A stretch of 61,829 nt of DNA from Campylobacteraceae bacterium. GTDB lineage: Bacteria > Campylobacterota > Campylobacteria > Campylobacterales > Sulfurovaceae. Positions 14,861-42,863 of this stretch are shown in pieces (positions within the stretch are counted from its first letter, which is position 1; every line of letters starts with the position of its first letter). The position numbers and the translations under genes were made by a program. The DNA is taken from positions 1-61,829 of the forward strand of contig JALVXC010000025.1 of NCBI GenBank assembly GCA_027038275.1, written 5' to 3'. Below the pieces are notes generated by a model. It made no database searches, was not told the origin of the DNA, and saw only the letters and a list, made by a program, of their open reading frames with translations.

Positions 14861-15766
14861 TTAAGGAATAACTACGTTAAGATTCATATGGTCTTCATCT
14901 GTATTTCCTTGTGCATCAATAACAACTAATTTAATATCATGAACTCCTGCTTCATTAGGAGCATACCATCTTTTCTTATGTGAACCAATATAGGTAGTTC
15001 CATCATACCATTTATAAGATACAATACCATTTACTCCAAAACTATTACTTCCGTTTAAATAAACAGCTCTATGAGATGGTGTAACATTTAAAACTTTATC
15101 TTCTCCTGCATCTGCTTGAAGTGAAGTGCCTGGGTCTGTGTTTAGTATTTTTACTTTTACATTTACAGTATCACTATCATTACGATCACTATCGTTAGTA
15201 ACAGTCAATGTAATAGGATATGTTGCATTAACATCATTAGGCGGAGTGAAATCAAGTATTGACTCTTCTCCTAAAGTTGTTCCATTTACATCAGTCCATT
15301 TATAACTAGTAATATGTGAAAAATTAGCACCTGGAGTACTTGCTCCACCATCTAATGTTACACTTGTATTCGATGGAGTTATAGTTGCTGTAATATCTTC
15401 TCCTGCATTAGCGTGAGGTGTACTTATAGCTGTAACATTTATTACATCTTCATCTGTGCAACCTGTAGATGTTTTAATGATTAAGCTAATTTGTTGGAAT
15501 TTTGATGTTGGAGTATACCAACGAGCAGCACCACTACCTAAATAGCTAGAGCCTTTATACCACTTATAAGATATAATTTCACCTGCACCTGGAGTAACTG
15601 TACTACCTTTACCATTAAGATATACAGAACGCTTTGAGGGTGTTACATACAAAATTTTATCTCCTCCTGCATTAGCTGTACAAGTAGCTTGTTCTTCAGA
15701 GGCATTTAGTGTTTGTATTCCTAAAATTAAACCTAAACAGACTATTGTTTTTAATGATTTCATCAT
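14861..15766 (-). CDS. Secreted three-PKD-domain protein
   Basis: A 301-residue protein with a Sec signal peptide (cleavage near NAS, residue 23) followed by three PKD-like Ig-fold domains (about 30-115, 118-208, 217-300). Domains 1 and 3 are the local Trp/Tyr-rich variant: xANAGxDKxLxVTPSxRxVYLNG, then SYKWYxGxxYxGSxxxRWY, then DEDxxxxxV. Domain 2 is a more ordinary PKD. Domain 3 is almost identical to the last PKD of the divergent 16014-19133 protein. Cys29 and Cys103 bracket domain 1 and could pair. There is no anchor or C-terminal sorting signal. A second ATG three bases on (15763) is better spaced from AAGG. Role unknown; probably a surface or matrix protein of the polysaccharide locus. 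Confidence 0.82.
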   Translation of the reverse strand: MMKSLKTIVCLGLILGIQTLNASEEQATCTANAGGDKILYVTPSKRSVYLNGKGSTVTPGAGEIISYKWYKGSSYLGSGAARWYTPTSKFQQISLIIKTSTGCTDEDVINVTAISTPHANAGEDITATITPSNTSVTLDGGASTPGANFSHITSYKWTDVNGTTLGEESILDFTPPNDVNATYPITLTVTNDSDRNDSDTVNVKVKILNTDPGTSLQADAGEDKVLNVTPSHRAVYLNGSNSFGVNGIVSYKWYDGTTYIGSHKKRWYAPNEAGVHDIKLVVIDAQGNTDEDHMNLNVVIP

Positions 15767-15784
15767 TGACCTTTTTTATATATT

Positions 15785-15819
15785 TAATTACAAATATATT
15801 TTACATATATTTGTAATTA
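15785..15819. promoter_or_regulatory. 15-bp inverted repeat between divergent PKD genes
   Basis: TAATTACAAATATAT (15785-15799) pairs perfectly with 15805-15819 around a 5-base loop. It sits just upstream of the ribosome site of the minus-strand PKD gene and could be an operator or a leader hairpin. The flanking region is almost all A and T, which lowers the surprise, but the arms contain a C-G pair and no mismatch. Confidence 0.45.
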
Positions 15820-16013
15820 TTTTGTAATAGTATAATTATAAATATTAATATTTATTTAAAAATAGATAATTAAATAAAATATTATTATTAATTTAAAATT
15901 ATTATATATTATTAAAAAAGTTATTTTTTTTAATAAAAAAATAAAATTTTGTTTTTAATTTTATAATTATTATGATAACATATAATCCTATATCTAAATT
16001 AAAAAGGAAATAC

Positions 16014-19000
16014 ATGAATTATGCTTCACTCATTAAAGTCAAAATTATATTAATATTATTATTGACTTTTTCAAATTTTTATGCTATGGCATCTAATATA
16101 ACAGGGACTTCAAGTAATATTGAGGCAAAACATATTGGTCCAGCTGTGGGAGGTGCTATGTTTGCCATTGCCATTGACCCAACAAATAAGAATAATATCT
16201 TTTTTAGTGGAGATATGGGAGTTGTATATCATACAATAGATGGAGGGAATAGTTGGAGTATTGTACCAGGTATGTATCGTATTCGCTCTATTAAGTTTGA
16301 TCCTAACAATACAAATATTATTTGGGCTATAGGTTCAACAGGGGTTTATAAGTCTATTGATGGAGGAGCAACTTGGCAATATAGTTTCAGTACCTATCAT
16401 AGATATAATTTTACATTAGGAGCTATAGCAATTGATCCTACTGATTCAAATATTGTTTATGTAGCTGAGGGATTTGTTTCGTACTTTAGACTAACCTATG
16501 TAAGAGGTAGAGTTTTTAAAACTACTAATGGAGGAAAGAGTTGGAAACTCTTAACAAGACCAGGAGGAGATACTTCTTCAGATTCTATTTATAATAGAAA
16601 CTACTCTACAATCCTTATTGACCCAAATAGTAGTTATACTTCAGGTGTAGGACATAGTGATGTTTATCTTATGGGGAGAGATGGGCTCTTTAAATCAACA
16701 GATGCTGGAGGTAGTTGGCAAAATATTACTTTTTTTGATGAGGGGCAAGGTTCAGATGCTATCTTGATTGATGACAATAACCAAACTACTCTTGTTGTCT
16801 CAGTTATACCAATGAAAAATCATAGCAAAAAAGGGGTTTATAAAAGTACTGACAATGGTCAAACATGGCAAGAGATTAATAATGGGCTAGAAGATATTAT
16901 TCATGCATTATCTATACGAAATAAAAATATTAAAAGAACTACTCAATTCTCGTTAATGTTAGCACATAGTCGTTCAGATAAAAATACAATCTATGTTGGT
17001 TCTTGGCAAGGAGTTGCAAAAACTACTAATCAAGGTCAAAGTTGGACACAAACTACCCCTGCTGAGACACCATATATTAAACATGTTAGTGGAAAATATG
17101 TTCAAGCTCCTCTAAACACACATCCTAATCAAACAAAAACTTTTCTTGGTGGTATAGATAACTTTATTAAAATGACAGCATCAGATAGTGATTCTAACTT
17201 TGTAATTTTTGGAGATAATCGAGATATTCATTTTTCTACAGATGGAGGAACTGTATGGGAAAGTAGAAGTTTTGATTACAAGGAACCTTTTGTAAATCCT
17301 CCAACTGATGTTTTACCTACTCTACCAGAGAACTCTCCAGCAAATGTATATACACATACAATTAAATCTAGAGGTGTACAAGGATTGGTAAACAATGATA
17401 TTGTAGTAGACCCTTTTGACCCAAAAACTTATTATGCAACATATAGAGATGTTGGTCTTTATGTTTCAAGAGATGCAGGAGAAACATGGGAACATCCAAC
17501 TATAGGACTACCTCCAAGAGGACATGCATGGTCAGTTACAGTAGACCCAAATAACGATGGAGTAGTTTGGGTCTCTATGGCTAAAAGTGGTTCAGTCTAT
17601 AAAAGTATTGACCATGGGGTATCTTGGAGTGATGTTTCAATAAATACCTCATCAACTGATGATACTCTACCAACTAGTCATGTAAGAGATTTAGCCTTTG
17701 ATGCTCAAAATAGTATCTTATATGCAGCTACCAATAAAGGTATTTATAAAAGTAGTAATGGGGGTCAAAATTGGCAAAGAATTTTTAATTTAGATATCTT
17801 TGATATAAAAATAGATCTATCAAATAAAGATATTTTATATGCAGGTACAAAAACAGGATTATACAAAAGTACTGATAGAGGTAATAACTGGAATCAATTA
17901 GCTTCTGATAAAATGGGAAAAGTATATAATATATCTGTTAGTAAAAATAATACCATATATGTTATATCAAATAAATCAGGAGAATACTCTCGTTGGCAAA
18001 GTAGAAAACTATGGGTATCTACAGATGGAGGAGTAAACTTTAGTGAGATTACACCATCTTTTATGCATCCAATTGGTGGAGTAGCTGTTGATCCTAATGA
18101 CCCTCAGCATGTGTATATATCGACCTATGAAACAAATCAAAAATATCTAGATGATCCCGCAATTATGGCACAATCTAAAGATGGTGGTCTTACTTGGGAG
18201 AAATTAGTAGATAATTTTGCTTTTGCATTAGGAACTGATATTTATATCAATCCTAAAAATCCAAGTCAAATATTTTTCAATACAAACTTTTCACTTATTG
18301 AGGTTAATAACAATAATACTCCTGTTGTAACTTTAACTGCAAATGCAGGGGATGATGTAGTATTAAATGTAACCCCATCACATAGAGCAGTTTATCTTAA
18401 TGGGAAAGATAGTACTAGCTCTAATGGTCATACTATTGTTAGTTATAAATGGTATGATGGTGATAGATACATCGGTTCTGGTGCTACTAGATGGTATACT
18501 CCTAATAGTGCAGGTGTACATGATGTCAAATTGGTTATTACAGATGATCAAGGTAATAGTAGTGAAGATCATAAGTTGATTACAGTATATAAACAACTTA
18601 AGGCAAATGCTGGTAAAGATATTAATGTGGCAATTACATCATCTAATACAAGTGTCAGATTAGATGGTACAGCAAGTAGTGATCCTACAAATATTGCTAG
18701 TTATGAATGGTTTGATGCAAATGGAACACGTTTAGGAGTAGGCTCAATTATTGATATTACACCTCCTGCAATAGATGGAGCATATCCTGTTACCTTAACT
18801 GTTAAAGATGAAGCTGGACATAGCGATAGTGATACAGTAGTTATAAATGTAACTGTAGTAGACTCAAATATTTCAATTAAAGCAGATGCAGGAGAAGATA
18901 AAGTTTTAAATGTTACACCATCCCATAGAGCAGTTTATTTAAATGGAAGTAAAAGTTTTGCAACACAAGGTATTGTATCTTATAAATGGTATGATGGTAC

Positions 19001-19133
19001 TACTTATATTGGTTCACATAAGAGAAGATGGTATGTTCCTAATGGTTCAGGAGTTCATGATATTAAATTAGTTATTACAGATACTCACGGAAATACAGAT
19101 GAAGATCATATGAGTCTTACAGTAAATAATTAA
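16014..19133 (+). CDS. Secreted tandem beta-propeller (13 Asp boxes, GH74/sortilin-like) with three PKD domains
   Basis: About 1039 residues. A signal peptide (1-26) is followed by a propeller region (about 30-770) with 13 Asp-box motifs of the form S-x-D-x-G-x-x-W, then three PKD-like domains (about 773-861, 862-954, 955-1039). Thirteen boxes over about 740 residues suggest two seven-blade propellers, as in GH74 xyloglucanases. The segment GGAMFAIAIDP to SGDMGVVYH aligns ungapped with the GH74 start, placing Asp67 at the GH74 catalytic Asp. There is no C-terminal anchor or sorting tag. I chose the ATG at 16014 because AAAAAGGA precedes it and its paralogue begins identically; the in-frame ATG at 15972 lacks both. 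Probably a glycan-binding or glycan-cleaving extracellular protein. Confidence 0.82.
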   Translation: MNYASLIKVKIILILLLTFSNFYAMASNITGTSSNIEAKHIGPAVGGAMFAIAIDPTNKNNIFFSGDMGVVYHTIDGGNSWSIVPGMYRIRSIKFDPNNTNIIWAIGSTGVYKSIDGGATWQYSFSTYHRYNFTLGAIAIDPTDSNIVYVAEGFVSYFRLTYVRGRVFKTTNGGKSWKLLTRPGGDTSSDSIYNRNYSTILIDPNSSYTSGVGHSDVYLMGRDGLFKSTDAGGSWQNITFFDEGQGSDAILIDDNNQTTLVVSVIPMKNHSKKGVYKSTDNGQTWQEINNGLEDIIHALSIRNKNIKRTTQFSLMLAHSRSDKNTIYVGSWQGVAKTTNQGQSWTQTTPAETPYIKHVSGKYVQAPLNTHPNQTKTFLGGIDNFIKMTASDSDSNFVIFGDNRDIHFSTDGGTVWESRSFDYKEPFVNPPTDVLPTLPENSPANVYTHTIKSRGVQGLVNNDIVVDPFDPKTYYATYRDVGLYVSRDAGETWEHPTIGLPPRGHAWSVTVDPNNDGVVWVSMAKSGSVYKSIDHGVSWSDVSINTSSTDDTLPTSHVRDLAFDAQNSILYAATNKGIYKSSNGGQNWQRIFNLDIFDIKIDLSNKDILYAGTKTGLYKSTDRGNNWNQLASDKMGKVYNISVSKNNTIYVISNKSGEYSRWQSRKLWVSTDGGVNFSEITPSFMHPIGGVAVDPNDPQHVYISTYETNQKYLDDPAIMAQSKDGGLTWEKLVDNFAFALGTDIYINPKNPSQIFFNTNFSLIEVNNNNTPVVTLTANAGDDVVLNVTPSHRAVYLNGKDSTSSNGHTIVSYKWYDGDRYIGSGATRWYTPNSAGVHDVKLVITDDQGNSSEDHKLITVYKQLKANAGKDINVAITSSNTSVRLDGTASSDPTNIASYEWFDANGTRLGVGSIIDITPPAIDGAYPVTLTVKDEAGHSDSDTVVINVTVVDSNISIKADAGEDKVLNVTPSHRAVYLNGSKSFATQGIVSYKWYDGTTYIGSHKRRWYVPNGSGVHDIKLVITDTHGNTDEDHMSLTVNN

Positions 19134-19146
19134 TATTTTCTTACTA

Positions 19147-19174
19147 ATACCTATGAAGAATAATTCATAGGTAT
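19147..19174 (+). terminator. Stem-loop after propeller gene 1
   Basis: A perfect 11-bp stem (ATACCTATGAA 19147-19157 with TTCATAGGTAT 19164-19174), 6-base loop, 14 bases after the stop. There is no clear T-run. Nearly the same hairpin follows the paralogue at 22249. Confidence 0.55.
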
Positions 19175-19360
19175 AACAATAAACTACATTAAATATATTT
19201 CTTTATATTTCTCACATATAATGTATAAAAATACACTATTTAGTGGGAAATTCTCTTTCTACTGCTTAATAATCTCACTTTTTTAATCAAAAATAGTTAC
19301 GAATAGTTAACTAATAATTATATATATTTAAAAAAGTATATATAATAATATGTTTTATAG

Positions 19361-19380
19361 TTGTATATGTTAATATACAA
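19361..19380. promoter_or_regulatory. Inverted repeat upstream of propeller gene 2
   Basis: TTGTATAT (19361-19368) and ATATACAA (19373-19380) with a 4-base spacer, ending 28 bases before the ATG at 19409. It is a possible operator or leader hairpin. AT-rich, so modest support. The wider gap 19134-19408 holds no gene. Confidence 0.3.
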
Positions 19381-19408
19381 AAAATAGAACAAATCAAAAA
19401 GGAAAAAC

Positions 19409-22249
19409 ATGAATTATGTTTCAATTGTTAAAGTCAAAATTATGTTAATTTTGTTATTGACTTTTCCAAGTTTTTATGCTACGGCATCTAACATAACAGG
19501 AACCTCAAGTAATATTGAGGCAAAACATATTGGTCCAGCTGTGGGAGGTGCTATGTTTGCCATTGCCATTGACCCAACAAATAAGAATAATATCTTTTTT
19601 AGTGGAGATATGGGAGTTGTCTATCATACGGTAGATGGAGGAAATAGTTGGAGTATTGTGCCAGGTATGTATCGTATCTCTTCTATTAAATTTGATCCAA
19701 ATAATACAGATATTATATGGGCTGTAGGTGCAACAGGAGTTTATAAGTCTGTTGATGGAGGAGCAACATGGGAATATACTTTTAATACCTATCATTCATT
19801 TAATTTTACATTAGGAGCTATAGCAATTGACCCTACTGACTCAAATATTGTTTATGTAGCAGAAGGTTTTGTTCCTTATTATAGATTGGATCATATAAGA
19901 GGAAGAGTTTTTAAAACTACAAATGGTGGAAAAAGTTGGAAATATATGAGACCTGGAGGAGATTCATCTTCTCTTGTTTATAATAGAAACTACTCTAAAA
20001 TTCTTATAGACCCTAATAGTAACTATACTCCAGGTGTAGGACATAGTGATGTCTATTTTATGGGACGAGACTATCTATTTAAAACAACAGATGCTGGAGA
20101 TAGTTGGCAAAATATTAGTTTTTTTGAGAAGGGACAAGGTTCAGATGCCATCTTAATTGATGACAATAACCAAACCACTCTTATTGTCTCTGTTATACCA
20201 GTAAATGGGCATGATAAAAAAGGAGTTTATAAGAGTACAGATAATGGTCAAACATGGCAAGAGATTAATAATGGACTAGAAGATATTATTGATGCCTTAT
20301 ACACGCACAATACAGATATTAATAAAACTATTCAATTTTCATTAATGTTAGCACATAGTCATTCAGATAAAAATACAATCTATGTTGGTTCTTGGCAAGG
20401 AGTTGCAAAAACTACTAATCAAGGTCAAAGTTGGACGCAAACTACTCCTGCTGAAACACCATATATTCAACATGTTAGTGGTGTATATGTTCAAGTTCCT
20501 TTAAACACACACCCTAACCAAACAGAAACTTTTGTTGGTGGTATAGATAACTTCATAAGAATAACAGCATCAGATAGTGATTCTAACTTTGTTATTTTTG
20601 GAGATAATCAAGATATCTCTTTCTCTACAGATGGAGGAACGGTATGGAAGAGTAGAACCTTTGATTACAATGACTCTTTTGTAGCCTCTCCGACTGATAT
20701 TTTACCTGATTTACCAGAAAATTCCCCACCAAATAGATATACACACAAAATTAAATCTAGAGGTGTACAAGGACTTGTAAATACAGATATTGCTATAGAT
20801 CCTTTTGACCCAAAAATTTATTATGCAACCTATATGGATGTTGGTCTTCAAATTTCAAGAGATGCAGGGAAAACATGGGAGCATCCAAGTGATGGACTAC
20901 CTCCAAAAGGACACGCTTGGTCAGTTACTGTAGACCCAAATAACGAAGGAGTAGTTTGGGTATCTGTAAATAAAAAAGATTTAATTTATAAAAGTACAGA
21001 CCATGGAGTATCTTGGAGTGGTGTTCCAGTAGATACTTCAGTTGATAAAGTAAGAGATTTAGTTTTTGATTCTAATAATAGTATTTTATATGCAGCTACT
21101 GATGAAGGTATTTTTAAAAGTAGTAATGGGGGTCAAAATTGGCAAAGTATTTCTAATCGGGATACTTTTGATATAAAAATAGACCTATCAAATAAAGATA
21201 TTTTATATGCAGGAACAAGAACAGGATTATACAAAAGTACTGATGGAGGTAATAATTGGAATCAATTAGCTTCTGATAAAATGGGGAAAGTATATAATAT
21301 CTCTGTTGGAAAAAACAATACTGTATATGTTATATCAAACGAATCAGGAGAAGAATACGATTGGCAACGTAGAAGACTATGGGTTTCTACAGATGGAGGA
21401 GTAAACTTTAGTGAGATTACACCATCTTTTATGCATCCAATTGGTGGAGTAGCTGTTGATCCTAATGACCCACAACATATATATATATCAACCTATGGAA
21501 CAAATCAAAAACATCCAGATGATATAGCTATTATGGCACAATCTAAAGATGGTGGTCTTACTTGGGAAAAATTAGTAGATAATTTTGCTTTTGCATTAGG
21601 AACTGATATTTATATCGATCCAAAAAATTCAAATCATATATTTTTCAATACACGATTTTCACTTATTGAGGTGAATGTTAGTATTCCCACTTTGATTGCA
21701 GATGCAGGAGAAGATGCAACAATAATTGTAACACCATCAAGAACTTCTTTTTACCTTAACGGAACAGATAGTAAATCTTTATCGGAGTTTGATATTGTTA
21801 AATATAAATGGTATGATAAATATAATAGTGACAGATATAGATATATTGGTTCTGGCTCTAAACGATGGTATTATGTTAAAAACAAGATAGGTGTACATGA
21901 TATTAAACTAGTAGTTATAGACGAACAAGGTAATAAAGCTGAAGATCATATGACTCTTACTGTAAAAAATAGAGTTCAAGCAGATGCTGGTCCAGACAGA
22001 AATATAACAATAACACCGTCACGTAAATCTGTTTATCTTGATGGAAGAAATAGTTTTGCAGTAGATGGTATAGACTCTTATCAATGGTATGATAAATATA
22101 ATAGTGATGAATATAAACATATCGGTCCTCATGCTACGCGATGGTATTCTGTTGCTAGTAAACCAGGAGTTCATACTATTAAACTAATTATAAAAGATAA
22201 AAAAGGTCAAGAGAGTCAAGATATAATGACTCTTACCGTAAACAACTAA
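19409..22249 (+). CDS. Secreted tandem beta-propeller (13 Asp boxes, GH74/sortilin-like) with two PKD domains
   Basis: A 946-residue tandem paralogue of 16014-19133: the same signal peptide, the same 13 Asp boxes in the same order and the same SGDMG motif (Asp67), with long blocks unchanged. After the propeller it has only two PKD-like domains (about 762-855 and 856-946). These differ from the first protein's in a longer YDKYNSDxYxxIG hairpin, which suggests that the propeller was duplicated while the PKD tails were exchanged or evolved separately. AAAAAGGA precedes the ATG. No anchor or sorting tag. It is followed at its stop by the same hairpin as the first copy. Role inferred: extracellular glycan recognition or processing. 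Confidence 0.82.
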   Translation: MNYVSIVKVKIMLILLLTFPSFYATASNITGTSSNIEAKHIGPAVGGAMFAIAIDPTNKNNIFFSGDMGVVYHTVDGGNSWSIVPGMYRISSIKFDPNNTDIIWAVGATGVYKSVDGGATWEYTFNTYHSFNFTLGAIAIDPTDSNIVYVAEGFVPYYRLDHIRGRVFKTTNGGKSWKYMRPGGDSSSLVYNRNYSKILIDPNSNYTPGVGHSDVYFMGRDYLFKTTDAGDSWQNISFFEKGQGSDAILIDDNNQTTLIVSVIPVNGHDKKGVYKSTDNGQTWQEINNGLEDIIDALYTHNTDINKTIQFSLMLAHSHSDKNTIYVGSWQGVAKTTNQGQSWTQTTPAETPYIQHVSGVYVQVPLNTHPNQTETFVGGIDNFIRITASDSDSNFVIFGDNQDISFSTDGGTVWKSRTFDYNDSFVASPTDILPDLPENSPPNRYTHKIKSRGVQGLVNTDIAIDPFDPKIYYATYMDVGLQISRDAGKTWEHPSDGLPPKGHAWSVTVDPNNEGVVWVSVNKKDLIYKSTDHGVSWSGVPVDTSVDKVRDLVFDSNNSILYAATDEGIFKSSNGGQNWQSISNRDTFDIKIDLSNKDILYAGTRTGLYKSTDGGNNWNQLASDKMGKVYNISVGKNNTVYVISNESGEEYDWQRRRLWVSTDGGVNFSEITPSFMHPIGGVAVDPNDPQHIYISTYGTNQKHPDDIAIMAQSKDGGLTWEKLVDNFAFALGTDIYIDPKNSNHIFFNTRFSLIEVNVSIPTLIADAGEDATIIVTPSRTSFYLNGTDSKSLSEFDIVKYKWYDKYNSDRYRYIGSGSKRWYYVKNKIGVHDIKLVVIDEQGNKAEDHMTLTVKNRVQADAGPDRNITITPSRKSVYLDGRNSFAVDGIDSYQWYDKYNSDEYKHIGPHATRWYSVASKPGVHTIKLIIKDKKGQESQDIMTLTVNN

Positions 22250-22276
22250 TGCCTATGAAAATTAATTCATAGGTAT
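22249..22276 (+). terminator. Stem-loop after propeller gene 2
   Basis: An 11-bp stem with one G-U pair (22249-22259 with 22266-22276) and a 6-base loop, beginning at the last base of the stop codon. Arm sequence is shared with the hairpin at 19147-19174. Confidence 0.55.
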
Positions 22277-22398
22277 GTTACAAGCCAAGAATAAAGTTTA
22301 AATGGTATAATACCATAAAAAATAAGATATATTAACAAATATAAATAATTAATATATATATAATAACAGGAAAAAACTTTAAAAGGAATCTAAAAAAA

Positions 22399-23265
22399 AT
22401 GAAAGGTATTATTTTAGCAGGTGGTTCGGGTACTCGTCTATATCCTGTTACAACAAGTATATCTAAACAGCTATTGCCAATTTATGATAAACCAATGATT
22501 TATTATCCCTTATCTGTTTTAATGCTTGCAGGGATAAAAGATATATTAATTATATCAACACCACAAGATATAGATAATTTTAAGAGACTTCTAGGCAATG
22601 GAGAGAATTGGGGTATTAGATTAGAGTATAAAGTTCAACCATCACCAGATGGACTAGCACAAGCTTTTACCCTTGGAGAAGAGTTTATAGGAAATGAAAA
22701 TGTCTGTTTAATACTAGGAGACAATATCTTTTATGGTCAAGGTTTTTCTCCTATGCTTAAAAAAGCTTCTAATATAGAAGATGGTGCAATTGTTTTTGGA
22801 TACCAAGTAAATGATCCTGAGCGTTTTGGTGTTGTCGAATTTAAAAACAATAGAGTAATTAGCATAGAAGAGAAACCAAAACATCCAAAATCAAACTTTG
22901 CTGTAACAGGACTCTACTTTTATGATAATGATGTAATAGAAATAGCAAAAAATATTAAAAAATCCCATCGTGGAGAGTTAGAGATAACATCAGTAAATGA
23001 AGAGTATTTAAAAAGAGGTAAATTGAGAGTTGAGCTTTTAGGTAGAGGCTTTGCATGGCTTGATACAGGAACACACGATACTCTTCTATCTGCTGGACAA
23101 TTTGTGCAGACTATAGAACATAGACAGGGTTATAAGATAGCATGTCTTGAAGAGATAGCTTATAATAATGGTTGGATTAATAGAGAAAAAGTTTTAGAGA
23201 TAGCTGAACCTTTAAGTAAAAATAGTTATGGACAATATCTAAAGGATTTAGTAAAAGATGACTAA
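22399..23265 (+). CDS. rmlA: Glucose-1-phosphate thymidylyltransferase
   Basis: A 288-residue nucleotidyltransferase that makes dTDP-glucose from glucose-1-phosphate and dTTP. The N-terminal nucleotide loop is GGSGTRLYP (about 8-16). It also has the Lys of [40 protein letters not shown] and [11 protein letters not shown]. Length is normal for RmlA. AAAAGGAA precedes the ATG. It is the first gene of a tightly packed run (rmlA-rmlB-DegT-ATP-grasp), overlapping rmlB by eight bases, that supplies an amino-deoxy sugar nucleotide. Confidence 0.95.
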
Positions 23266-24271
23266 CATACTCTTAACAGGAACAGCTGGGTTTATAGGCT
23301 CAAATTTTGTTCCATATTTTTTAGAAAAGTACCCTAATTATAACTTAATAAACCTCGATTTACTTACTTATGCAGGTGATATAAAAAACCTAAGTGAGTG
23401 TGAACTAAACCCTAGATACAAATTTATCAAAGGAGATATTTGTAATCGGGATTTAGTTGAATATATATTTCAAGAGTATAATATTCAAGGAGTTATTCAT
23501 TTTGCTGCTGAGTCACATGTAGATAACTCTATTAAAAATCCAGGGGTATTTATAGAGACCAATGTAAAAGGCACTTTTACACTTATAGATGTAGCTCAAA
23601 AGTATTGGATGAATAGACCATTTGAGTATAAAGATGAACATAAAGGGTATGGTCGTTTTCACCATATCTCAACTGATGAAGTCTATGGAACACTTGGAGA
23701 GACTGGACTATTTACAGAAGAGACACCTTATGCTCCTAACTCTCCATACTCTGCATCTAAAGCAAGTAGTGATATGATAGTCCGTTCATATCATGAGACG
23801 TATGGATTAAATACAGTTATAACAAACTGTTCAAATAACTATGGACCAAAACAGCATGATGAAAAACTTATTCCAACTATTATTAGAAAAGCATTAGAAG
23901 GAGAGAGTATTCCAATATATGGAGATGGGAAAAATATTAGAGATTGGCTGTATGTGTTAGACCACTGTAAAGGTATAGATTTAGTTTTTCATAAAGGAAA
24001 AGTAGGCAATACTTACAATATTGGTGGACGAAACGAGAGAACAAATCTTCAAGTTGCTAATGCTATCTGTAGAGTATTAGATGAAAAAGTACCTAAATCT
24101 AAATCCTATAAGAGATTAATTAGATTTGTAGAAGATAGAGCTGGTCATGATAGACGTTATGCTATTGATGCAACAAAAATTGAGACAACATTAGGCTGGA
24201 GAGCTGATGAAGACTTCAATACAGGTATTATTAAAACCATTGAATGGTATTTAAAGAAGTATAATGATTAA
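23258..24271 (+). CDS. rmlB: dTDP-glucose 4,6-dehydratase
   Basis: A 337-residue short-chain dehydrogenase/reductase that converts dTDP-glucose to dTDP-4-keto-6-deoxyglucose. The NAD-binding motif is [10 protein letters not shown] (7-16). STDEVYG carries the Thr/Asp/Glu catalytic trio and YSASKAS the Tyr-x3-Lys pair. [14 protein letters not shown] binds the nucleotide sugar. There is no rmlC or rmlD nearby. The next gene is a sugar aminotransferase, so the keto intermediate is probably aminated and not turned into L-rhamnose. It overlaps both neighbours by eight bases. Confidence 0.95.
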
Positions 24272-26514: not shown

Positions 26515-26533
26515 AATATAAATGGAGAAAAAG

Positions 26534-27682
26534 ATGAAAGATTATAAACAACCATTGAAACTTGCATTTATAGGTGGTGCTATAGACTCGGCAATTGGAT
26601 ATACTCACTACATAGCTTCTCAAATGGATCATAGGTTTACCCTTTGTGCGGGTTGCTTTAGTAGAAGAGAAGGTATAAACGAAAAAACAGCATTAACTTG
26701 GGGAGTTGAAAGAGAACATCTCTACTCAAATTGGGAGATACTTTTAGAAAATGAGGTAGAAAATATTGATGCTGTTGTTATACTTACTCCAACACCAAAT
26801 CATTATGAAATGATAATGAAAGCTCTTGAGTTAGGATACTCTGTAATTTCAGAAAAGGCACTCGCTACTACTTATGAGGAAGGTATAAAGTTAACAAATA
26901 AAATTGATGAAAAAAAAGCTTTTTTTGCAGTGACCCATAACTATACTGGATATCCAATGATTAGAGAATTGCAAAATATGATAAAAGAGAATAATCTTGG
27001 AAAAATTACACATATAAATATAGAGATGCCTCAAGAAAGTTTTGCAAGATTAGATATAAATGGAAATAAACCAAAACCTCAAAACTGGAGATTAGAGGAT
27101 AGTAAAATTCCTGGAATTTCACTTGATTTAGCTGCTCATTTACAACATATGATCTATTTTTTAACAGGTGAAAATCCAATTGAATTGGTAGCAGACCAAT
27201 CTAGTTTTGGATGGTTTACAAATATTATAGATGATATAACTTGCTTAGCTAGATATAAAAGTGGCATGAAAACTCAAATGTGGTATGGCAAATCTTCAAT
27301 AGGTCATAGAAATGGATTGAGAATAAGAGTTTATGGTACAAAAGGCAGTGCTGAATGGTTTCAAATGCAACCTGAAGAGTTAATTTTTAATACTATAAAT
27401 GGCAATAAAATGATAATAGATAGGGCATCAAATGTTTCTGTGGCAAATCAGTTAAGATACAATCGATTTAAATCGGGTCATCCTGCTGGATTTATTGAAG
27501 CATTTGGTAATCTTTATGTTGATATAGCCCAAAAGCTAGAACAGTATAAGATTGACAATAATCATCAAATTGATTGGACATATGATGCTAAACAGGCAAC
27601 AAAAGGATTAGAAATATTTGAAGCTATTCAAAAATCATCAAACGAAAATAGATGGGTAGAGTTAGAAGGAAAAATATATTGA
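26534..27682 (+). CDS. Gfo/Idh/MocA-family oxidoreductase
   Basis: About 382 residues. The N-terminal Rossmann domain begins LKLAFIGGAIDSAIG; VILTPTPNHYEMIMKALELG and SEKALATT (with the EK-x-A motif that carries the catalytic-region Lys) are typical of NAD(P)-dependent sugar oxidoreductases. The C-terminal alpha/beta domain holds GISLDLAAHLQHMIYFLTG, whose His is in the usual catalytic place. GGAG at six bases supports the ATG at 26534; the in-frame ATG at 26522 has no ribosome site. It probably oxidises or reduces a nucleotide sugar or pendant group made by the preceding genes. The exact substrate cannot be told. Confidence 0.87.
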   Translation: MKDYKQPLKLAFIGGAIDSAIGYTHYIASQMDHRFTLCAGCFSRREGINEKTALTWGVEREHLYSNWEILLENEVENIDAVVILTPTPNHYEMIMKALELGYSVISEKALATTYEEGIKLTNKIDEKKAFFAVTHNYTGYPMIRELQNMIKENNLGKITHINIEMPQESFARLDINGNKPKPQNWRLEDSKIPGISLDLAAHLQHMIYFLTGENPIELVADQSSFGWFTNIIDDITCLARYKSGMKTQMWYGKSSIGHRNGLRIRVYGTKGSAEWFQMQPEELIFNTINGNKMIIDRASNVSVANQLRYNRFKSGHPAGFIEAFGNLYVDIAQKLEQYKIDNNHQIDWTYDAKQATKGLEIFEAIQKSSNENRWVELEGKIY

Positions 27683-27713
27683 TTTTAAAAAATAAAATTT
27701 TTGAGTTACAATT

Positions 27714-29180
27714 ATGAGTAGTTTAAAAACACAAGGAGTCAAAGCATATCTATGGGATTTTATTGGTAAGATTCTGCAAAATGGTATGGGTTTTATTGTT
27801 TCCATATTTTTAGCAAGATTACTAGAACCATCTGAATTTGGTATGATTGCTATGATAATGGTTATTATTGGAATGGCTCAGATTTTTACTGATATTGGTC
27901 TTGGTGGAGCTTTAATACAGCGACGAAGAGTACTCCCTATACACTATTCATCAGTTTTTTATTTTAATATTTTTATTGCGTCTATTTTAAGTTTAATTAC
28001 TTATATCTTTGCATCTAAAATAGGTGAATTTTATAATAATATTGAACTAGTCCCTTTGGCAGAGGTGATGTCTTTATCTTTCATCATTGCAGCATTTTCA
28101 AGTGTACAAAATGTAAAATTACGTAAAGAGTTAAACTATGCACTTTTAACAAAAATGAATCTTATTGCATCACTTATAAGTGGCATACTTGGTGTATCAT
28201 TAGCATTTTATGGTGCGGGTGTTTGGAGTTTAGTAGTACAGAATCTATCTCAAAGAGTTATTTACAATATTTTAATTTGGAATAGAGCTAAATGGAAACC
28301 ATCTTTAGAATTTTCATTTAAGGCGTTAATGCAGTTGTGGGGTTATGGATTTCGTATGTTTTTATCAGGATTACTAGAGAATATATTTATACGTTTAGAC
28401 TATCTTATCATTGGTAAACTTTTTGAAGCTACAGCATTAGGATTCTTTCAACGTGCAAAATCTTTAAATTTATTTGTAATCCGATACTCCTCTAGTAGTT
28501 TAATGAGTGTGCTATTTCCGATATTAAGTAAAATTCAAAATGATTTACCTCGATTTCAAAATATTATTGTTAAATCGCTTGGAATTATTAGTTTTGCCTC
28601 TTTTTTGCTTCTTGGTGGATTATATTTAGTCTCTGAAGAATTTATAGTGTTGTTATTTGGAGAAAAGTGGCTTCCTTCTGTTTATTACTTTAAAATTTTG
28701 GTATTAAGTGGATATGCATATCCAATTAGTGCACTGTTAGTCAATGTACTAAGTAGTAGAGGCAATTCAAAAGCATTTTTACGACTAGAAATTTATAAAA
28801 AATTAATATCGACAGTTGGCTTTATAATTTTATATTTTTATAATATAAACACATATTTATATACTCTTATTATTTTGGTAGTTTTAGCAGTAACTTTAAA
28901 TATTATATTTGTATCTCGTGAAATAAATTTACCTTTTTTCAAACTAGCTAATCCTATATTAACACAAGCAGGTACAGCAATAATTTCTGTAATGGCGACA
29001 ACTTTCATAGTGCAGAACATAGAATTAACAAATATAATAATGTTTATTATTAAGGGTTCAATATTCCTATTTTTCTATATAGGGGTTAATTATTTATTTA
29101 AAACAAGCTCTTTCTTTTATATCTTAGAACAAATAAAACCAGTTGTAAAGAAAAAGTTTGTAAATAAGATAGATAATTAA
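27714..29180 (+). CDS. wzx: Polysaccharide repeat-unit flippase (Wzx family)
   Basis: A 488-residue integral membrane protein with about 12-14 hydrophobic segments, of the MOP superfamily (WzxC/Polysacc_synt_3 type). The start has the signature pattern WDFIGKILQNGMGFIVSIFLARLLEPSEFG, given here in part as FIVSIFLARLLEPSEFG, followed by DIGLGGALIQR. It should translocate the lipid-linked oligosaccharide unit across the inner membrane for polymerisation by the Wzy-like protein (43967-45187). The ribosome site is weak. It ends 15 bases before the pyruvyl transferase gene. Confidence 0.9.
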   Translation: MSSLKTQGVKAYLWDFIGKILQNGMGFIVSIFLARLLEPSEFGMIAMIMVIIGMAQIFTDIGLGGALIQRRRVLPIHYSSVFYFNIFIASILSLITYIFASKIGEFYNNIELVPLAEVMSLSFIIAAFSSVQNVKLRKELNYALLTKMNLIASLISGILGVSLAFYGAGVWSLVVQNLSQRVIYNILIWNRAKWKPSLEFSFKALMQLWGYGFRMFLSGLLENIFIRLDYLIIGKLFEATALGFFQRAKSLNLFVIRYSSSSLMSVLFPILSKIQNDLPRFQNIIVKSLGIISFASFLLLGGLYLVSEEFIVLLFGEKWLPSVYYFKILVLSGYAYPISALLVNVLSSRGNSKAFLRLEIYKKLISTVGFIILYFYNINTYLYTLIILVVLAVTLNIIFVSREINLPFFKLANPILTQAGTAIISVMATTFIVQNIELTNIIMFIIKGSIFLFFYIGVNYLFKTSSFFYILEQIKPVVKKKFVNKIDN

Positions 29181-29195
29181 AAAGGAGATAGTATA

Positions 29196-30401
29196 TTGAG
29201 TAAAATTCAAAAAATTACAATAGTAAATGCACATTGGAGCAATAGAGGTGATGAGGCAGCTCTTTTAGCTGTTGTAGATGGACTACAAAAAAAATATCCA
29301 AATAGTAAAATTATGATTTTATTTAAAGATGATAAACAGATACAGCAGTTCCCAAATATTAAAAATGTAGATTATGATACTGCTAAATTTAATGCAAAAA
29401 TTTGGGATATATGGATTACAACCATTTCTCGTGGAGTACTGGGAATAAATGATAAATTAAAATTTATGGTAAAAACTCTTTTAAAATCAGATTTGATTAT
29501 CTACTCTCCAGGTGGTTCAGTTATCAATAGCCGATTTTTTTGGCGAAAACAGATGGAGTATTTAGTTCCTTTTATCTGCTCAAAGTTTTACAATATTCCT
29601 TTAATGATAGCAGCTCCTTCTATAGGACCATTTGATTCAAATAAACCAAATAGAATCTTAAAGTGGCTTTTAAAAGTTCCAAAGGTATTTATAGTAAGAG
29701 AAGAGATATCAAAAAGATACCTTGAAGAGATAGGTATTATAGATAATATTGTAACGACCATAGATTCAGCATTTTATGATGGTATTAAAGAAGAGATAAA
29801 TAAGAAAAAGCTTGATGAGTATAAAGATTTAAAAGAGTATTTAAACTCTCATGAGAAGGTAGTTGGTATAACTATTACAGATTTTTCATGGCATGTAAAA
29901 TATGGTAAAGATAAAGAGTTGTCTAAACGAATAACAGACTCTTTTAGACAATTTTTAGATAAGCTTCAAAGTGAGGGGTATGGTATTTTATTTATACCTC
30001 AGCTATTTGGCAATCAAAATGATTCTGACTATATGGACACTTTTTCAACAGATAAAACATTTATGATGAAAGATACTTATGATACTTATTTTCAACAATA
30101 CATCATCTCAAAGCTTTATGCTGTAGAGGGTATGAGATACCATTCAAATATATTTTCTGCAAAAGTAGGAACACCATTTATTCCTGTAGTATATGAAGAG
30201 AAGATGGAAGGATTTGTAGAAATAGCAGGATTAAATGATTATGCTATATCACTTAATGAACTTTCCTTTGAACAATTAGAAGAGAAGTTTGAAAAACTTA
30301 TTGATAACTATGATGATGTAAAAGCTATGTTTAGAGATAAATTACCTAATTGGAAACAACAGGCTTCAAAAACAATTGAATTATTAGGAAAATATAACTA
30401 A
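29196..30401 (+). CDS. Polysaccharide pyruvyl transferase family protein
   Basis: A 401-residue member of the CsaB/WcaK family (PS_pyruv_trans). NAHWSNRGDEAALLAVVDGL at the start, LIIYSPGGSVINSRF, MIAAPSIGPFDS, a VREEISKRYLEEIGI helix, and late EGMRYHSNIFS with the conserved His. These enzymes transfer pyruvate from phosphoenolpyruvate to make a ketal on a sugar, adding negative charge. It starts at TTG with AAAGGAG eight bases upstream. It overlaps the FrhB-like gene by one base (TAATG), a pairing that recurs in polysaccharide loci as remembered, so the two likely act together. Confidence 0.88.
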   Translation: MSKIQKITIVNAHWSNRGDEAALLAVVDGLQKKYPNSKIMILFKDDKQIQQFPNIKNVDYDTAKFNAKIWDIWITTISRGVLGINDKLKFMVKTLLKSDLIIYSPGGSVINSRFFWRKQMEYLVPFICSKFYNIPLMIAAPSIGPFDSNKPNRILKWLLKVPKVFIVREEISKRYLEEIGIIDNIVTTIDSAFYDGIKEEINKKKLDEYKDLKEYLNSHEKVVGITITDFSWHVKYGKDKELSKRITDSFRQFLDKLQSEGYGILFIPQLFGNQNDSDYMDTFSTDKTFMMKDTYDTYFQQYIISKLYAVEGMRYHSNIFSAKVGTPFIPVVYEEKMEGFVEIAGLNDYAISLNELSFEQLEEKFEKLIDNYDDVKAMFRDKLPNWKQQASKTIELLGKYN

Positions 30402-31549
30402 TGGTAAAAAAGAAAAAAATAAATATTTTGGATACAACTGCTGTAAGAGATTGTACAGGTTGTTCTGCTTGTAGTTTAGTTTGTCATTCTAATGCTATCT
30501 CTATGAATTTAACTAAAAAAGGTTTTTATGAGCCAAGTATTGATGATGATTTATGCACAATGTGTGGTGTATGTCCAGATGTATGCTATAAATTTAATGA
30601 ATTTGATAATATAAATCCATTCGAAGGAACAGAAGTTATAGCTGTAACTAATAATTTTATAGACGATATGAATTCTATATCAACTGTTGGAGTTGCAACT
30701 AGATTAGCTGAACATTTTTACGAATTGGGTTATAATGTATGTGGTGTAAAGTATGATTATGAAAAAAATATCGCATATCATGATGTCGCAACACAACTGG
30801 AAGATATTTTAGAGTTTAAAGGTTCAAAATATATACCTAGTGATACAAAAGATGCATTTAAGCAACTCCTCAAAGATAAGAAGCAATCTATTGTTTTTGG
30901 ATTACCTTGTCATATACATGGATTAAGAAAGATAATAGAAAAAAAGAAAATAGCAGATAGATTTATTTTAGTTGACCTTTTTTGTGCTGGTGTACCATCT
31001 CAAAGTGTATGGAATAAACACTTAGACTATCTCAATAGGAAATTTTCTATAGGAAAAATAAAGAAACTAAATTTTAGAGATAAAACACAAGGATGGCATA
31101 AATCATCTTTGGCTATAGAAGATATAAATAGTAATACTTATATACAAAATTGTTTTAATGATATGTTCTACGCATTTTTCTTAAAAAAAGCCTCTTTACA
31201 AGAGGCTTGTTATAGTTGTGAATTTAGAACGAATGTAGTTTCATCAGACATTAGATTAGGTGATTTTTGGGGGGCAAAATATAAAGTATGGGATGATGGA
31301 GTTGAATTGATGACAATTATGAATGAACAAGGAAGGTTTGCATGGGAAGAGATTAAAGATTATTTTAGTTATCAAAAGTGCAAAGAAGCAGACTTATATG
31401 AATCTCAAAAATCAGGTTCTATGAAAACTTCAGTGAAAAAACCAAATAATTATAATAAAATTTTGAATTCTTTATCTTCAGATAAAAAATTAGAAGAAAT
31501 TTTTAAAGAATTTAAAATAGCTAAGTTAGCTTTTGGTGGAGAATCGTAG
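30401..31549 (+). CDS. Coenzyme F420 hydrogenase beta-subunit-like iron-sulfur protein
   Basis: A 382-residue protein with two N-terminal [4Fe-4S] ferredoxin motifs (Cys18, 21, 24, 28 and Cys52, 55, 58, 62), then the FrhB/FdhB N and C domains (GLPCHIHGLRKII, VDLFCAGVPS, ACYSCEFRTN, RLGDFWG). FrhB relatives bind flavin and move electrons. Versions in polysaccharide clusters are of unknown substrate. It is coupled by a one-base overlap to the pyruvyl transferase, which hints at a redox step on the same sugar or acceptor. An internal 9-bp hairpin at 31188-31208 is within the coding sequence. The family is clear and the role unknown. Confidence 0.87.
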   Translation: MVKKKKINILDTTAVRDCTGCSACSLVCHSNAISMNLTKKGFYEPSIDDDLCTMCGVCPDVCYKFNEFDNINPFEGTEVIAVTNNFIDDMNSISTVGVATRLAEHFYELGYNVCGVKYDYEKNIAYHDVATQLEDILEFKGSKYIPSDTKDAFKQLLKDKKQSIVFGLPCHIHGLRKIIEKKKIADRFILVDLFCAGVPSQSVWNKHLDYLNRKFSIGKIKKLNFRDKTQGWHKSSLAIEDINSNTYIQNCFNDMFYAFFLKKASLQEACYSCEFRTNVVSSDIRLGDFWGAKYKVWDDGVELMTIMNEQGRFAWEEIKDYFSYQKCKEADLYESQKSGSMKTSVKKPNNYNKILNSLSSDKKLEEIFKEFKIAKLAFGGES

Positions 31550-31642
31550 ATAAAGATTGTTTTCATTAAAAAAATATAATCATTTTTTGTAACCACTCAG
31601 ATGCTTACCCTTTCTTATACTTATTAAATCAAAAGGATATAT

Positions 31643-32617
31643 ATGAAAAACTTAAAAACACAAGAAGAGATTATGGTGAATTGGAAAGGTGATATAGAAA
31701 AACCTATTGTAAGTATATTATGTTTAACCTATAACCATCAACCTTATATTGAAGAAGCAATTGAAGGTTTTCTAGCACAAGAAACTGACTTTCCATTTGA
31801 AATTATTATACATGATGATGCCTCTACAGATAAAACTGCTGATATTGTTAGAGAATATGAAGCTAAATATCCAAAATTGATAAAGCCAATTTATCAAACT
31901 AAAAATCGATTTTCTCAAGGTCTGAGGAATGGAGAAGTTATCTATCCTAAAGCTAGAGGTGAGTATTTTGCTTATTGTGAAGGAGATGATTATTGGACAG
32001 ATTCTAAAAAATTACAAATACAAAAAGATTTTTTAGATAAAAATAAAGATTACTCAATGTGTTTTCATGAAACCAATGTTTTTATTCAAGAAAAAAATAA
32101 AATACGTACCTCTACTAATAAATTAAAAGATAAAGATGTATATTTAGAAGATTTTTTACTAAGTAATCAAGGTAGAACATGCTCTTTTATGTATAGAAGC
32201 AATAAAATAAAATTACTAGAAATAAGAAAAGATTTAAAATTTGGAGATTGGATACAACATATACTGCAAATACAAAATTCTAAAGCAAGATATTTATCAA
32301 GAAATATGGCTGTATATAGAGTACATTCTGGTGGAGTATGGAGTGGAGCTATACAAAAAGATAGGCTATTGAGTGAAATCAAAATGTTAGAGTTTATGGA
32401 TGAGTATTTAAATTTTAAATATAGTGAATTAATCTATCAAAGAATTGGTAGAAATCTATTTGAGATTTCATTAATATATATGAAAAATAATCAAAAGTTT
32501 ATTGATTACTCTTTTTCAGAATTTATGAATCATACAAATATAACTTATCTTGCTTTTATGAAAAAAAAGTTTAGAATATTTTTAAAAAGAAGTATAAAAA
32601 AACTTGGAAAAAAATAA
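31643..32617 (+). CDS. Glycosyltransferase family 2
   Basis: A 324-residue inverting GT-A transferase: VSILCLTYNHQPYIEEAIEGFLAQ at the start (abridged core SILCLTYNHQPYIEEA), IIHDDASTDKT for nucleotide binding, and CEGDDYWTDSKKLQIQ with the DxD-like metal site. The C-terminal part is helical and basic with no membrane segment. AAAAGGAT precedes the ATG. It is the only glycosyltransferase in the plus-strand half of the locus; the four GT4 enzymes are on the other strand. Donor and acceptor unknown. Confidence 0.9.
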   Translation: MKNLKTQEEIMVNWKGDIEKPIVSILCLTYNHQPYIEEAIEGFLAQETDFPFEIIIHDDASTDKTADIVREYEAKYPKLIKPIYQTKNRFSQGLRNGEVIYPKARGEYFAYCEGDDYWTDSKKLQIQKDFLDKNKDYSMCFHETNVFIQEKNKIRTSTNKLKDKDVYLEDFLLSNQGRTCSFMYRSNKIKLLEIRKDLKFGDWIQHILQIQNSKARYLSRNMAVYRVHSGGVWSGAIQKDRLLSEIKMLEFMDEYLNFKYSELIYQRIGRNLFEISLIYMKNNQKFIDYSFSEFMNHTNITYLAFMKKKFRIFLKRSIKKLGKK

Positions 32618-32757
32618 AGTCTCTTACGTAATTTAGTATGTAAATTATTTTTATTTTTTGCTTTATTGTCTTGTTTTTATTTAAAGTTATTGTTTTAAGT
32701 TATTTTTAATTAAAATATTAGTATTATATATAGTAAATTCAATAAAAGGGAAAAATA

Positions 32758-33873
32758 ATGAAAAATTTTAACAAAAATTTGAAAGCTATTTTACTATCAA
32801 TATGTATAGGACTATTTGCAGTACCTACTTTTGCAACTGCGGTAACAGCTGATGCAGGATCAGATAAAATACTTAATGTCACACCTAGTAATAGAGCAGT
32901 TCATTTAAAAGGTTCAGGAACAGGAGTAGAACCTTTAACTTACAAATGGTATGAAGATGAAAAGTTTATTGGACGTGGTGCAAGTCGTTGGTATGTCATT
33001 ACTCAAGGTGGTGAACATAATATCACTTTAGTTGTAACAGATGCCAATGGTAGTAAAGCTACAGATACAATGACAGTAACTGTAAATAAAGTAACAGCTA
33101 ATGCAAGTAGAAGTAAATCTGTTCATTTAGAGGGTTCAGGAACAGGAGTAGCACCTTTAACTTACAAGTGGTATGAAAAGGGTCATCTTATTGGTGAAGG
33201 TCAAAGTTATGAGTATGTGAATTCTCAAAACGGTGAACATGAAATTACTTTGGTTGTAACAGATGCAAATGGAGCTAAAGCTATAACCAAAACGACAGTC
33301 ACTGTAGAGAATGGAGCAGATTATATACCATTAACAGCTAATGCAGGACCAGATGCGATACTTAACATAACATCTAGCAATAGAGCAGTTTATTTAAATG
33401 GTTCAGAAACAACAGGAAATGCTCCTTTAACTTATAAATGGTATGAGAATGATAAATTTATTGGAACTGGTGTAGGTCGTTGGTATCGTATTACTCAAAA
33501 TGGTGAACATGAGATTACTTTAGTTGTAACTGATATTGATGGAAATGAAGATAGCGATACCATGATAGTTACCGTGAATAATGGAGAAGATGATACTCCA
33601 GCATTAGTAGCTGATGCAGGACCAGACAAAACACTTAATATCACATCTAGTCATAAATCGGTTTATTTAAAAGGTTCAGGAACAGGAGGAGTAGCTCCTT
33701 TAACTTACAAATGGTATGAGAATAATCATTATATTGGTAAGGGGTCACGCCGTTGGTATCGTATTACTCAAAATGGTGAACATGAGATTACTTTGACTGT
33801 AACAGATGCTAATGGTAATGTAGCTAAAGATACCATGATAGTTACAGTGAATAATGGAGAGACTAATTATTAA
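32758..33873 (+). CDS. Secreted four-PKD-domain protein
   Basis: A 371-residue protein: signal peptide of about 26 residues (ending TFATA), then four PKD-like domains (about 29-113, 114-188, 194-279, 284-367) of the local Trp/Tyr-rich variant (xADAGxDKxLNxT, PLTYKWYExxxxIGxG, RWYxITQxGEHxITLVVTD). Domain 2 lacks about ten residues at its first strand (TANASRSKSVHLEG) and has lost the RWY triplet, so it is degenerate. Domains 3 and 4 are joined by NNGEDDTP. No enzymatic domain, anchor or sorting tag. It closes the plus-strand half and converges on the minus-strand half. It may be a structural or adhesive partner of the polysaccharide. Confidence 0.82.
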   Translation: MKNFNKNLKAILLSICIGLFAVPTFATAVTADAGSDKILNVTPSNRAVHLKGSGTGVEPLTYKWYEDEKFIGRGASRWYVITQGGEHNITLVVTDANGSKATDTMTVTVNKVTANASRSKSVHLEGSGTGVAPLTYKWYEKGHLIGEGQSYEYVNSQNGEHEITLVVTDANGAKAITKTTVTVENGADYIPLTANAGPDAILNITSSNRAVYLNGSETTGNAPLTYKWYENDKFIGTGVGRWYRITQNGEHEITLVVTDIDGNEDSDTMIVTVNNGEDDTPALVADAGPDKTLNITSSHKSVYLKGSGTGGVAPLTYKWYENNHYIGKGSRRWYRITQNGEHEITLTVTDANGNVAKDTMIVTVNNGETNY

Positions 33874-36984: not shown

Positions 36985-37010
36985 TTGTCTATTTCCTTTA
37001 TATTTTAATT

Positions 37011-39805: not shown

Positions 39806-39813
39806 TGTGTATA

Positions 39814-42862: not shown

Positions 42863-42863
42863 A

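Follow-up and report, generated by a model that had tools for sequence, protein, structure and literature searches.

Four genes with PKD domains (g1 to g4) lie inside a large polysaccharide locus in a 61,829-nucleotide stretch, hereafter the window, of contig JALVXC010000025.1 from a Campylobacteraceae bacterium of the Sulfurovaceae (GenBank assembly GCA_027038275.1, positions 1 to 61,829). Their PKD array is a module that is shared across the genome, and a related species has a different module in its place on an ectodomain that is orthologous. All parts of these proteins are of known kinds and what is new is their arrangement; the genome-wide sharing of the module, together with its different identity on the orthologous ectodomain, is the stronger finding. 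Our preferred explanation, which is tentative, is that g1 to g4 are modular proteins secreted to the cell surface or into a matrix, in which the PKD array would be a shared attachment module at the cell's own glycan. The proteins would be exported by Sec and then released by a type II secretion system that we found in part, and the array would bind the surface glycan and hold different ectodomains there. In this mechanism g1 and g4 would be module-only forms, g2 and g3 would add a GH74-like propeller that is itself probably glycan-binding, and modules would move by recombination through a conserved leader.

The PKD array as a shared genomic module

The four open reading frames (ORFs) proposed by the first-pass annotation of the window all exist, and its count of twelve PKD domains was confirmed (three, three, two and four in g1, g2, g3 and g4, respectively). 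g1 (14861-15766, reverse strand) encodes a Sec-like N-terminus and three PKD domains (D1, 15422-15676; D2, 15146-15412; D3, 14867-15115) and nothing else. It is divergent from g2 (16014-19133, forward strand; 1039 residues), in which a Sec-like N-terminus and an Asp-box propeller region (16095-18320) precede a tail of three PKD domains (18339-19130; D1, 18339-18593; D2, 18603-18857; D3, 18882-19130). g3 (19409-22249, forward strand) is a paralogue of g2, with a propeller that is 82% identical in amino acids and two PKD domains (21698-21970 and 21980-22246). g4 (32758-33873, forward strand) consists of a leader of the shared type described below (32758-32838) and four PKD domains (D1, 32848-33090; D2, 33103-33312; D3, 33337-33585; D4, 33610-33858).

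A profile of the PKD variant was built from the twelve window domains and then searched in the genome. It matched all twelve domains (E 3.8e-40 to 4.3e-24), which is partly by construction. Independently of this profile, Pfam K319L-like_PKD scored over its cut-off in all four genes and PKD_4 did so in g1, g2 and g4, remaining below the cut-off in g3. An AlphaFold model of g1 D3 (predicted local distance difference test, pLDDT, 96.2) has the PKD beta-sandwich fold and matches 2y72 with Z 12.2 and a root-mean-square deviation (rmsd) of 1.8 over 79 aligned positions. The PKD domains of Clostridium collagenase (2y72, 4tn9) are the closest single-domain fold, but they are accessory domains of a collagenase and share 24% identity. 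The twelve domains lack the WDFGDG motif, which an excerpt of one report (PMC4304778) calls highly conserved among PKD domains, and have YKWYD, YKWYE and similar sequences at that place. The proteins had also been called Trp/Tyr-rich. Trp is indeed enriched in g1 to g4 (1.7-2.3%, versus a mean of 0.8% and a maximum of 2.1% in the 40 other ORFs of the window), whereas Tyr is not (Trp plus Tyr 6.0-7.6%, versus a mean of 5.7% and a standard deviation of 1.8).

In the genome, 32 domains matched the PKD-variant profile at E 0.001, 12 of them in the window and 20 elsewhere, on contigs C14, C28, C35, C38, C76 and C120. The matches fall in 12 genes, eight of which are outside the window, so that the term "four-member family" was too narrow. 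C120 (E 9.0e-16) and C14 (E 1.7e-10) are weaker members, and one of the two genes on C76 (C76b) is cut by the contig end; without C120 and C14, 17 of 29 domain matches and 6 of 10 genes are outside the window. We conclude that the PKD array is a shared module of the ten genes with strong matches and perhaps of the two others. The remaining parts of the outside proteins are DUF285, Ig-like and Lcl_C in C28, Ig-like and Lcl_C in C38a, LamG and Lcl_C in C35, IgGFc_binding and LamG in C14, an Asp-box protein in C38b, and leucine-rich and cadherin-like repeats (by eye) in C76a; C120 has nothing else. The variant was found in 5 of 397 genomes of the phylum at E 1e-15, this one included, and in 15 of 41 genomes (this one and relatives) at E 1e-6, mostly as weak matches.

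Four genes on four contigs (C28, C35, C38a and C76a) share a block that extends at least from -15 to about +830 and contains the ribosome-binding site, the leader and three PKD domains. This block is 91.7-93.8% identical in nucleotides in five of the six pairs and is followed by differing ectodomains; in the sixth pair, C38a/C35, a longer match reaches +1086 at 86.9%. The g4 module is more distant from these four (77-82%). Synonymous divergence (dS) among the four modules is 0.04-0.14, with a ratio of nonsynonymous to synonymous divergence (omega) of 0.40-0.82. For comparison, rmlA and rmlB of this genome and of a related genome, G536, have dS values of 0.20 and 0.10 and omega values of 0.07 and 0.09. 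The dS values indicate that the near-identical module copies were spread or homogenised about as late as the split between this genome and G536, or later.

The leader is shared between two species. Leader DNA of C38a is 94% identical over 96 bases to that of contig C226 in another related genome, G007, and the match ends with the leader; the C28 leader is 94% identical to that of G007 C226 over 81 bases. Since the propeller-2 ectodomain described below has a dS of 0.80 between this genome and G007, the leader stretch is unusually conserved between them. A leader profile was made from 11 leaders picked by eye (g1, g2, g3, C38b, C120, C41, C73 and C63, which have other leaders, were excluded) and searched in 34 genomes of the genus. 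At E below 1e-13 it matched six times in this genome, once in G536 and four times in G007, and weak matches (E 2e-4 to 0.018) were found two more times in G007 and once each in five other genomes. G007 and G536 are 70% and 82% complete, respectively, so that all counts for them are lower bounds. Low values behind the leader (which g4 versus homologous modules also gave, at 0.36-0.40) prove little because the comparison was gapless, and the C38a/C226 match that ends with the leader is better evidence. Exchange of cassettes could have its crossing points in the conserved leaders; alternatively, the leader may be under constraint.

Ongoing exchange had been proposed from one domain that was called almost identical between two genes. 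The best pair, g1 D3 and g2 D3, is 80% identical in amino acids and 88% in nucleotides, which is short of near-identity, and exchange is supported not by this pair but by the near-identical modules and by tracts in G536. The g2/g3-like copies in G536 agree at 99% in their first 150 bases (both contigs end there), and in further 150-base steps their propellers are 76-99% identical, an uneven pattern that fits conversion tracts.

A 67-base upstream match between C76a and g2 was discarded as AT-rich sequence. Spread of the module by phage was rejected, as none of six peptide patterns revealed a g4 relative in viral contigs; 50,697 phage records gave three g4 matches at about 31%, two of which were records of one phage with a Hoc-like or head outer capsid label and one of which was unannotated. 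Control of the module genes by a known RNA was also rejected, as no Rfam match came up to the gathering score of its family in the 126,195 bases searched (the window and six other stretches of this genome). On G536 C153, a PKD module gene has an internal stop (L136:4926-6032); module genes may decay, or this may be an assembly error. C28 also encodes a DnaE-like protein that apparently bears an intein (L013:2-4243; by eye).

A different module on an orthologous ectodomain

The propeller-2 ectodomains of C38b in this genome and C9 in G007 are 69.4% identical over 877 residues, and the two genes share their flanks, which are Fic-like and glutamate-synthase-like genes (names by eye). The module is PKD in C38b and an unrelated Glce_b_sandwich-type domain in G007 C9 (profile E 9.1e-72; four further G007 genes have the domain with Pfam support). 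The DNA of the two matches over L012 8945-12599, up to the border of the module, and again from 13172, shortly ahead of the Fic-like gene; the gap in between contains an additional small gene in G007. A third propeller-2 copy, C126 in this genome, is 80% identical and shows, in place of the module, a lipoprotein-like signal together with an Ig-like stalk (by eye), which suggests that the PKD module may serve as an anchor.

The g2/g3-type propeller also carries different tails, PKD in this genome and G536 and Ig-like plus Glce domains in G007 C63, whose propeller is 52% identical to this type over 794 amino acids. At a coaBC-uppS-like site (names by eye), G007 has a Glce-only gene and G536 has a gene with PKD and von Willebrand-like parts. 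A third and weaker case, for which synteny was not shown, is C28 versus G007 C288, with 41% identity over 456 residues of the DUF285/Ig part. Glce and PKD-variant matches at E 1e-6 number 21 and 3 in G007 and 6 and 31 in this genome, and G536 has 6 Glce matches (E 1e-6) and 13 PKD matches (E 1e-10). The individual Glce genes considered were those of G007 apart from the ones on C8, C210 and C209; those of this genome were left out. Arrays of several consecutive Glce_b_sandwich-type domains were seen in G014 (C128), G017 (C91 and C159) and G019 (C49).

A PKD module acting as a glycan tether would explain its replacement by a lipid-anchored stalk or a Glce module. The main rival is neutral spread of a spacer, and we regard it as a realistic possibility: the PKD array would be a mere spacer or fold-stabilising stalk without a special ligand, spread or homogenised by repeat recombination, and its presence in the locus would be incidental. 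High module identity with elevated omega would be expected of such a spacer, as would the many copies outside polysaccharide loci and the conversion-like tracts of the G536 g2/g3-like copies (identity of 99% and 76% in two different 150-base steps); Ig-like repeats occupy the same place in C126, and the Glce-type domain is also widespread in the genus. However, g1 and g4 are module-only proteins with no ectodomain to space, the module borders are sharp, and the two modules on propeller-2 belong to different Pfam families, a change that goes beyond conversion between homologues inside the module.

A more general version of the attachment model, which we consider doubtful, is that each species of the genus builds much of its surface proteome around a single attachment module with a common leader, that recombination at this conserved leader moves the module as a cassette from gene to distant gene and also from species to species, and that the module fits the polysaccharide of the cell. 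The modules would be the PKD variant in this genome and G536 and the Glce-type beta-sandwich in G007. If this were true, orthologous ectodomains would change their module in place, and a new polysaccharide would be accompanied by a switch of module throughout the genome.

A GH74-like propeller beside polysaccharide genes

The main part of g2 and of g3, about 740 residues in each, is an Asp-box propeller that was absent from the first-pass annotation. Pfam Sortilin-Vps10 matches it with 119.1 and 116.4 bits (cut-off 33). VPS10/sortilin proteins have a Cys-rich 10CC module after a ten-bladed propeller, and we rejected kinship with these receptors despite the match because there is no cysteine at all in g2 or g3. 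The NF045728 model (F510_1955 family glycosylhydrolase) gave 168.1 and 161.4 bits for g2 and g3, below its cut-off of 175. When only g2 and g3 were used for the profile, its nearest solved chains were GH74 xyloglucanases (6p2k, E 2.6e-12), and a 14-row profile (g2, g3 and 12 diverse ORFs, taken from distant loci among 21 g2-matching ORFs) again had a GH74 chain as the nearest (6p2m, E 8.1e-47). The structural model of g2 is of moderate quality (pLDDT 69.5; predicted template modelling score, pTM, 0.55). In a Foldseek search with this model, ranks 1-23 were all GH74, with E values down to 4.7e-29 and template modelling scores of 0.54-0.62 by target, to be read against the pTM of the model. VIA-align, which covered residues ~443-771 only, placed WD40 propellers at the top (Z 28.9, rmsd 2.6, 286-287 aligned), and GH74 was not among the 50 entries shown for this part. 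Relatives of the propeller at 21-29% identity occur at no fewer than 26 loci in named contigs of many phyla (this genome and very near ones excluded), a comparison that covers g2-matching ORFs only. Among 72,556 plasmid records, 61 have g2 relatives, the best 15 of which are 21.8-25.4% identical.

The positions of the active-site residues were read by eye on printed alignments. The GH74 base position is Asp67 in both g2 (16212-16214) and g3; the catalytic base is taken to be the Asp at which the printed alignment shows a difference between 2cn2 and 2cn3. The acid position, taken to be the Asp of A-M-G-D-Q-G in 6p2m, is Lys524 in g2 (17583-17585) and is neither Asp nor Glu in g3, both G536 copies and the G007 copy, although g3 and one G536 copy have an acidic residue one or two places beyond it. 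Because the Asp at the acid position is replaced, we read the propeller as one that probably binds rather than cuts glycan, GH74 catalysis having probably been lost or never been present. The GH74 xyloglucanases (2cn2, 5fkq, 6p2m), which are the nearest solved relatives and have the base-position Asp in common with g2 and g3, differ from them at the acid position, in the PKD tails and in the location beside biosynthetic genes.

The g2/g3 propeller was found at E 1e-30 in three of 169 genomes of the family (this one, G536 and G007). In the window, g3 is directly followed by RmlA-like and RmlB-like genes (22399-24271, forward strand; named, like the wecB-like gene of the window, from their sequences). 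In G536, the g3 orthologue (C252) is followed by RmlA-like, RmlB-like and aminotransferase genes in the order of the window, and in G007 the propeller end on C248 is followed by glycosyltransferase-like and flippase-like genes. The g2-like copy of G536 has unrelated genes on its 3' side, which alone is visible, and the other G007 copy (C63) fills a small contig. At least one copy is thus beside polysaccharide genes in all three genomes that have the propeller, and the g2/g3-type propeller stays with the polysaccharide locus between species.

The PKD variant does not. Outside the window, its neighbours in this genome have no clear polysaccharide role (by eye), except on C28, where a flippase/glycosyltransferase-like ORF is two genes away (by eye). 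The PKD-variant genes that we read in G004 and G007 are all away from polysaccharide genes. Of the four PKD contigs of G536, C252 belongs to a polysaccharide locus, C6 and C153 do not, and the 3' side of C114, which alone is visible, is not polysaccharide. The view that the proteins are built into a polysaccharide locus therefore holds for the propellers, in three genomes, but not for the PKD variant, for which 20 of the 32 matches and 8 of the 12 genes are on other contigs. Within the genome, the best matches of g1, g2 and g3 are inside the locus, and only g4 has its closest relative elsewhere (C38a, 82% identical in nucleotides over 1,142 bases including the leader).

An enzymatic role for g2 and g3, in trimming or remodelling the polysaccharide of the locus with the PKD domains as accessories in the manner of GH74 glycanases with carbohydrate-binding modules, seems improbable to us. 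The Foldseek and profile matches, the retained base Asp and the position beside polysaccharide genes in three genomes are in line with such enzymes; the Lys at the acid position of g2 and the non-acidic residues in the other four copies are not, and the g2 model behind the Foldseek ranks is of moderate confidence. About as improbable is a role of g1 to g4 as adhesins, in which the propeller would contact an external target (another cell, mineral or detritus) and co-regulation with biofilm genes would alone explain their location: ectodomains of surface-protein types (Lcl_C, LamG and DUF285, and IgGFc_binding on C14) and a large SdrD_B protein in the same locus would suit adhesins, but what is conserved at the locus from species to species is the propeller, which would be expected of a part that meets the cell's own product.

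Export, attachment and the remaining genes

By eye, we agree with the first-pass annotation that g1 to g4 have Sec-like N-termini and no C-terminal sorting tail, and Sec export is likely. Lipoprotein or sorting-tail anchors were not seen on any of the four by eye. They were also rejected as PEP-CTERM/exosortase substrates, as g1 to g3 end with the last PKD strand, g4 ends five residues later and no hydrophobic tail is visible (by eye). A stretch of C164 in this genome (L102:4452-14504) holds a probable type II secretion cluster and a divergent exosortase-like gene. GspD (380.8 bits; cut-off 351.35) and GspG (131.2; 88.85) are over their NCBIfam cut-offs, and GspC (90.2; 101.6) and GspE (552.5; 630.25) are below. 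The exosortase-family protein beside the type II genes (L102:4452-4997) matches TIGR04178 with 40.9 bits (cut-off 23). Three further secretin clusters of this genome are on C57 (L099), C128 (L100) and C114 (L101), the last being of MshL type and over the cut-off.

In Vibrio cholerae, the rbm genes are near the vps genes, and Bap1, RbmC and RbmA are all type II secreted. Like these proteins, g1 to g4 appear to be secreted and modular, with a conserved beta-propeller (in g2 and g3) and variable domains, and like exopolysaccharide matrix proteins they are encoded with polysaccharide genes, as are the propellers on G536 C252 and G007 C248. Excerpts of two reports state that the Bap1/RbmC propeller binds Vibrio exopolysaccharide (PMC10102183) and that RbmA binds Vibrio polysaccharide directly and has a native type II secretion signal (PMC5605196). 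In the excerpt of the chitinase report, Trp residues of the PKD domains matter for chitin hydrolysis (PMC4304778). Unlike Bap1/RbmC, the present proteins have a GH74/Asp-box-like propeller and PKD domains as the extra domains, and their PKD module recurs across many genes. The proposed likeness is one of function, and polysaccharide binding, shown for Bap1/RbmC, would apply here by analogy. The archaeal surface-layer protein 1l0q combines a YVTN propeller with PKD (match to the PKD model, Z 9.1, rmsd 2.2, 75 aligned), but its propeller is of a different family from that of g2/g3 and no dispersed module family is shown for it.

Gram-positive surface proteins carry shared YSIRK signals, SLH modules or cell-wall-binding modules over variable parts. 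The present genes are similar in that one recognisable leader or attachment module stands over many ectodomains; they differ in that no sortase motif or cell-wall module was seen here and the module fold changes between species under a similar leader.

Several observations weigh against attachment to the cell's own glycan. Most module genes are outside polysaccharide loci, and the module evolves fairly fast compared with rmlA and rmlB (omega values above). The clean syntenic module difference is a single pair, the other cases being without shown synteny. The modules are not species-exclusive: the Glce-type domain is in seven of eight genus genomes searched (8-13 matches in G014, G019 and G017), which makes it a common domain of the genus of which G007 is merely the richest of the eight. 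The leader profile gave no strong match beyond its 11 source leaders in the 34 genus genomes. GspF was not seen in the type II stretch of C164 (a different contig encodes a T2SSF protein), and no Pfam family matched the ORFs that occupy the K, L, M and N positions (assigned by eye). Glycan tethering itself is suggested by precedent. On the other side, a PKD module that held proteins at the cell's own glycan would explain why module-only genes are in a polysaccharide locus.

Many large secreted Gram-negative proteins have no visible anchor, and their retention at the producing cell is often unexplained. If the PKD module alone conferred species-specific polysaccharide binding, glycan type, attachment module and surface repertoire would be linked. 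Even if it does not bind, the module remains a clear natural example of recent spread or homogenisation across distant bacterial genes.

The genes described next, beyond g4, are on the reverse strand. Next to g4, a gene for a 342-residue protein (33894-34922) without a Sec-like signal (by eye) matches the NF045728 Asp-box glycosylhydrolase model with 23.1 bits, below the cut-off. This gene adjoins the deacetylase, and its stretch was matched twice in G536, on C71 and C65 (93% and 94% identical to the window, respectively). The polysaccharide genes at 34931-47475 encode the deacetylase, which is close to the XrtA type (TIGR03006 match below the cut-off), an ATP-grasp protein, a WcaI-type glycosyltransferase, a HepC-like protein, an AMP ligase-like protein, further glycosyltransferases, a membrane protein without a family match and a ManNAc-type dehydrogenase. 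A further group, at 51455-57585, comprises genes for a UDP-sugar dehydrogenase, an epimerase and CpsB/CapC, and export genes of Wzc and Wza type. Between these two groups lies the gene for the SdrD_B surface protein (47657-51202; 1181 residues), whose C-terminus is Cys-rich and hydrophobic; the Cys-rich motif, hydrophobic stretch and short tail there resemble a sorting signal.

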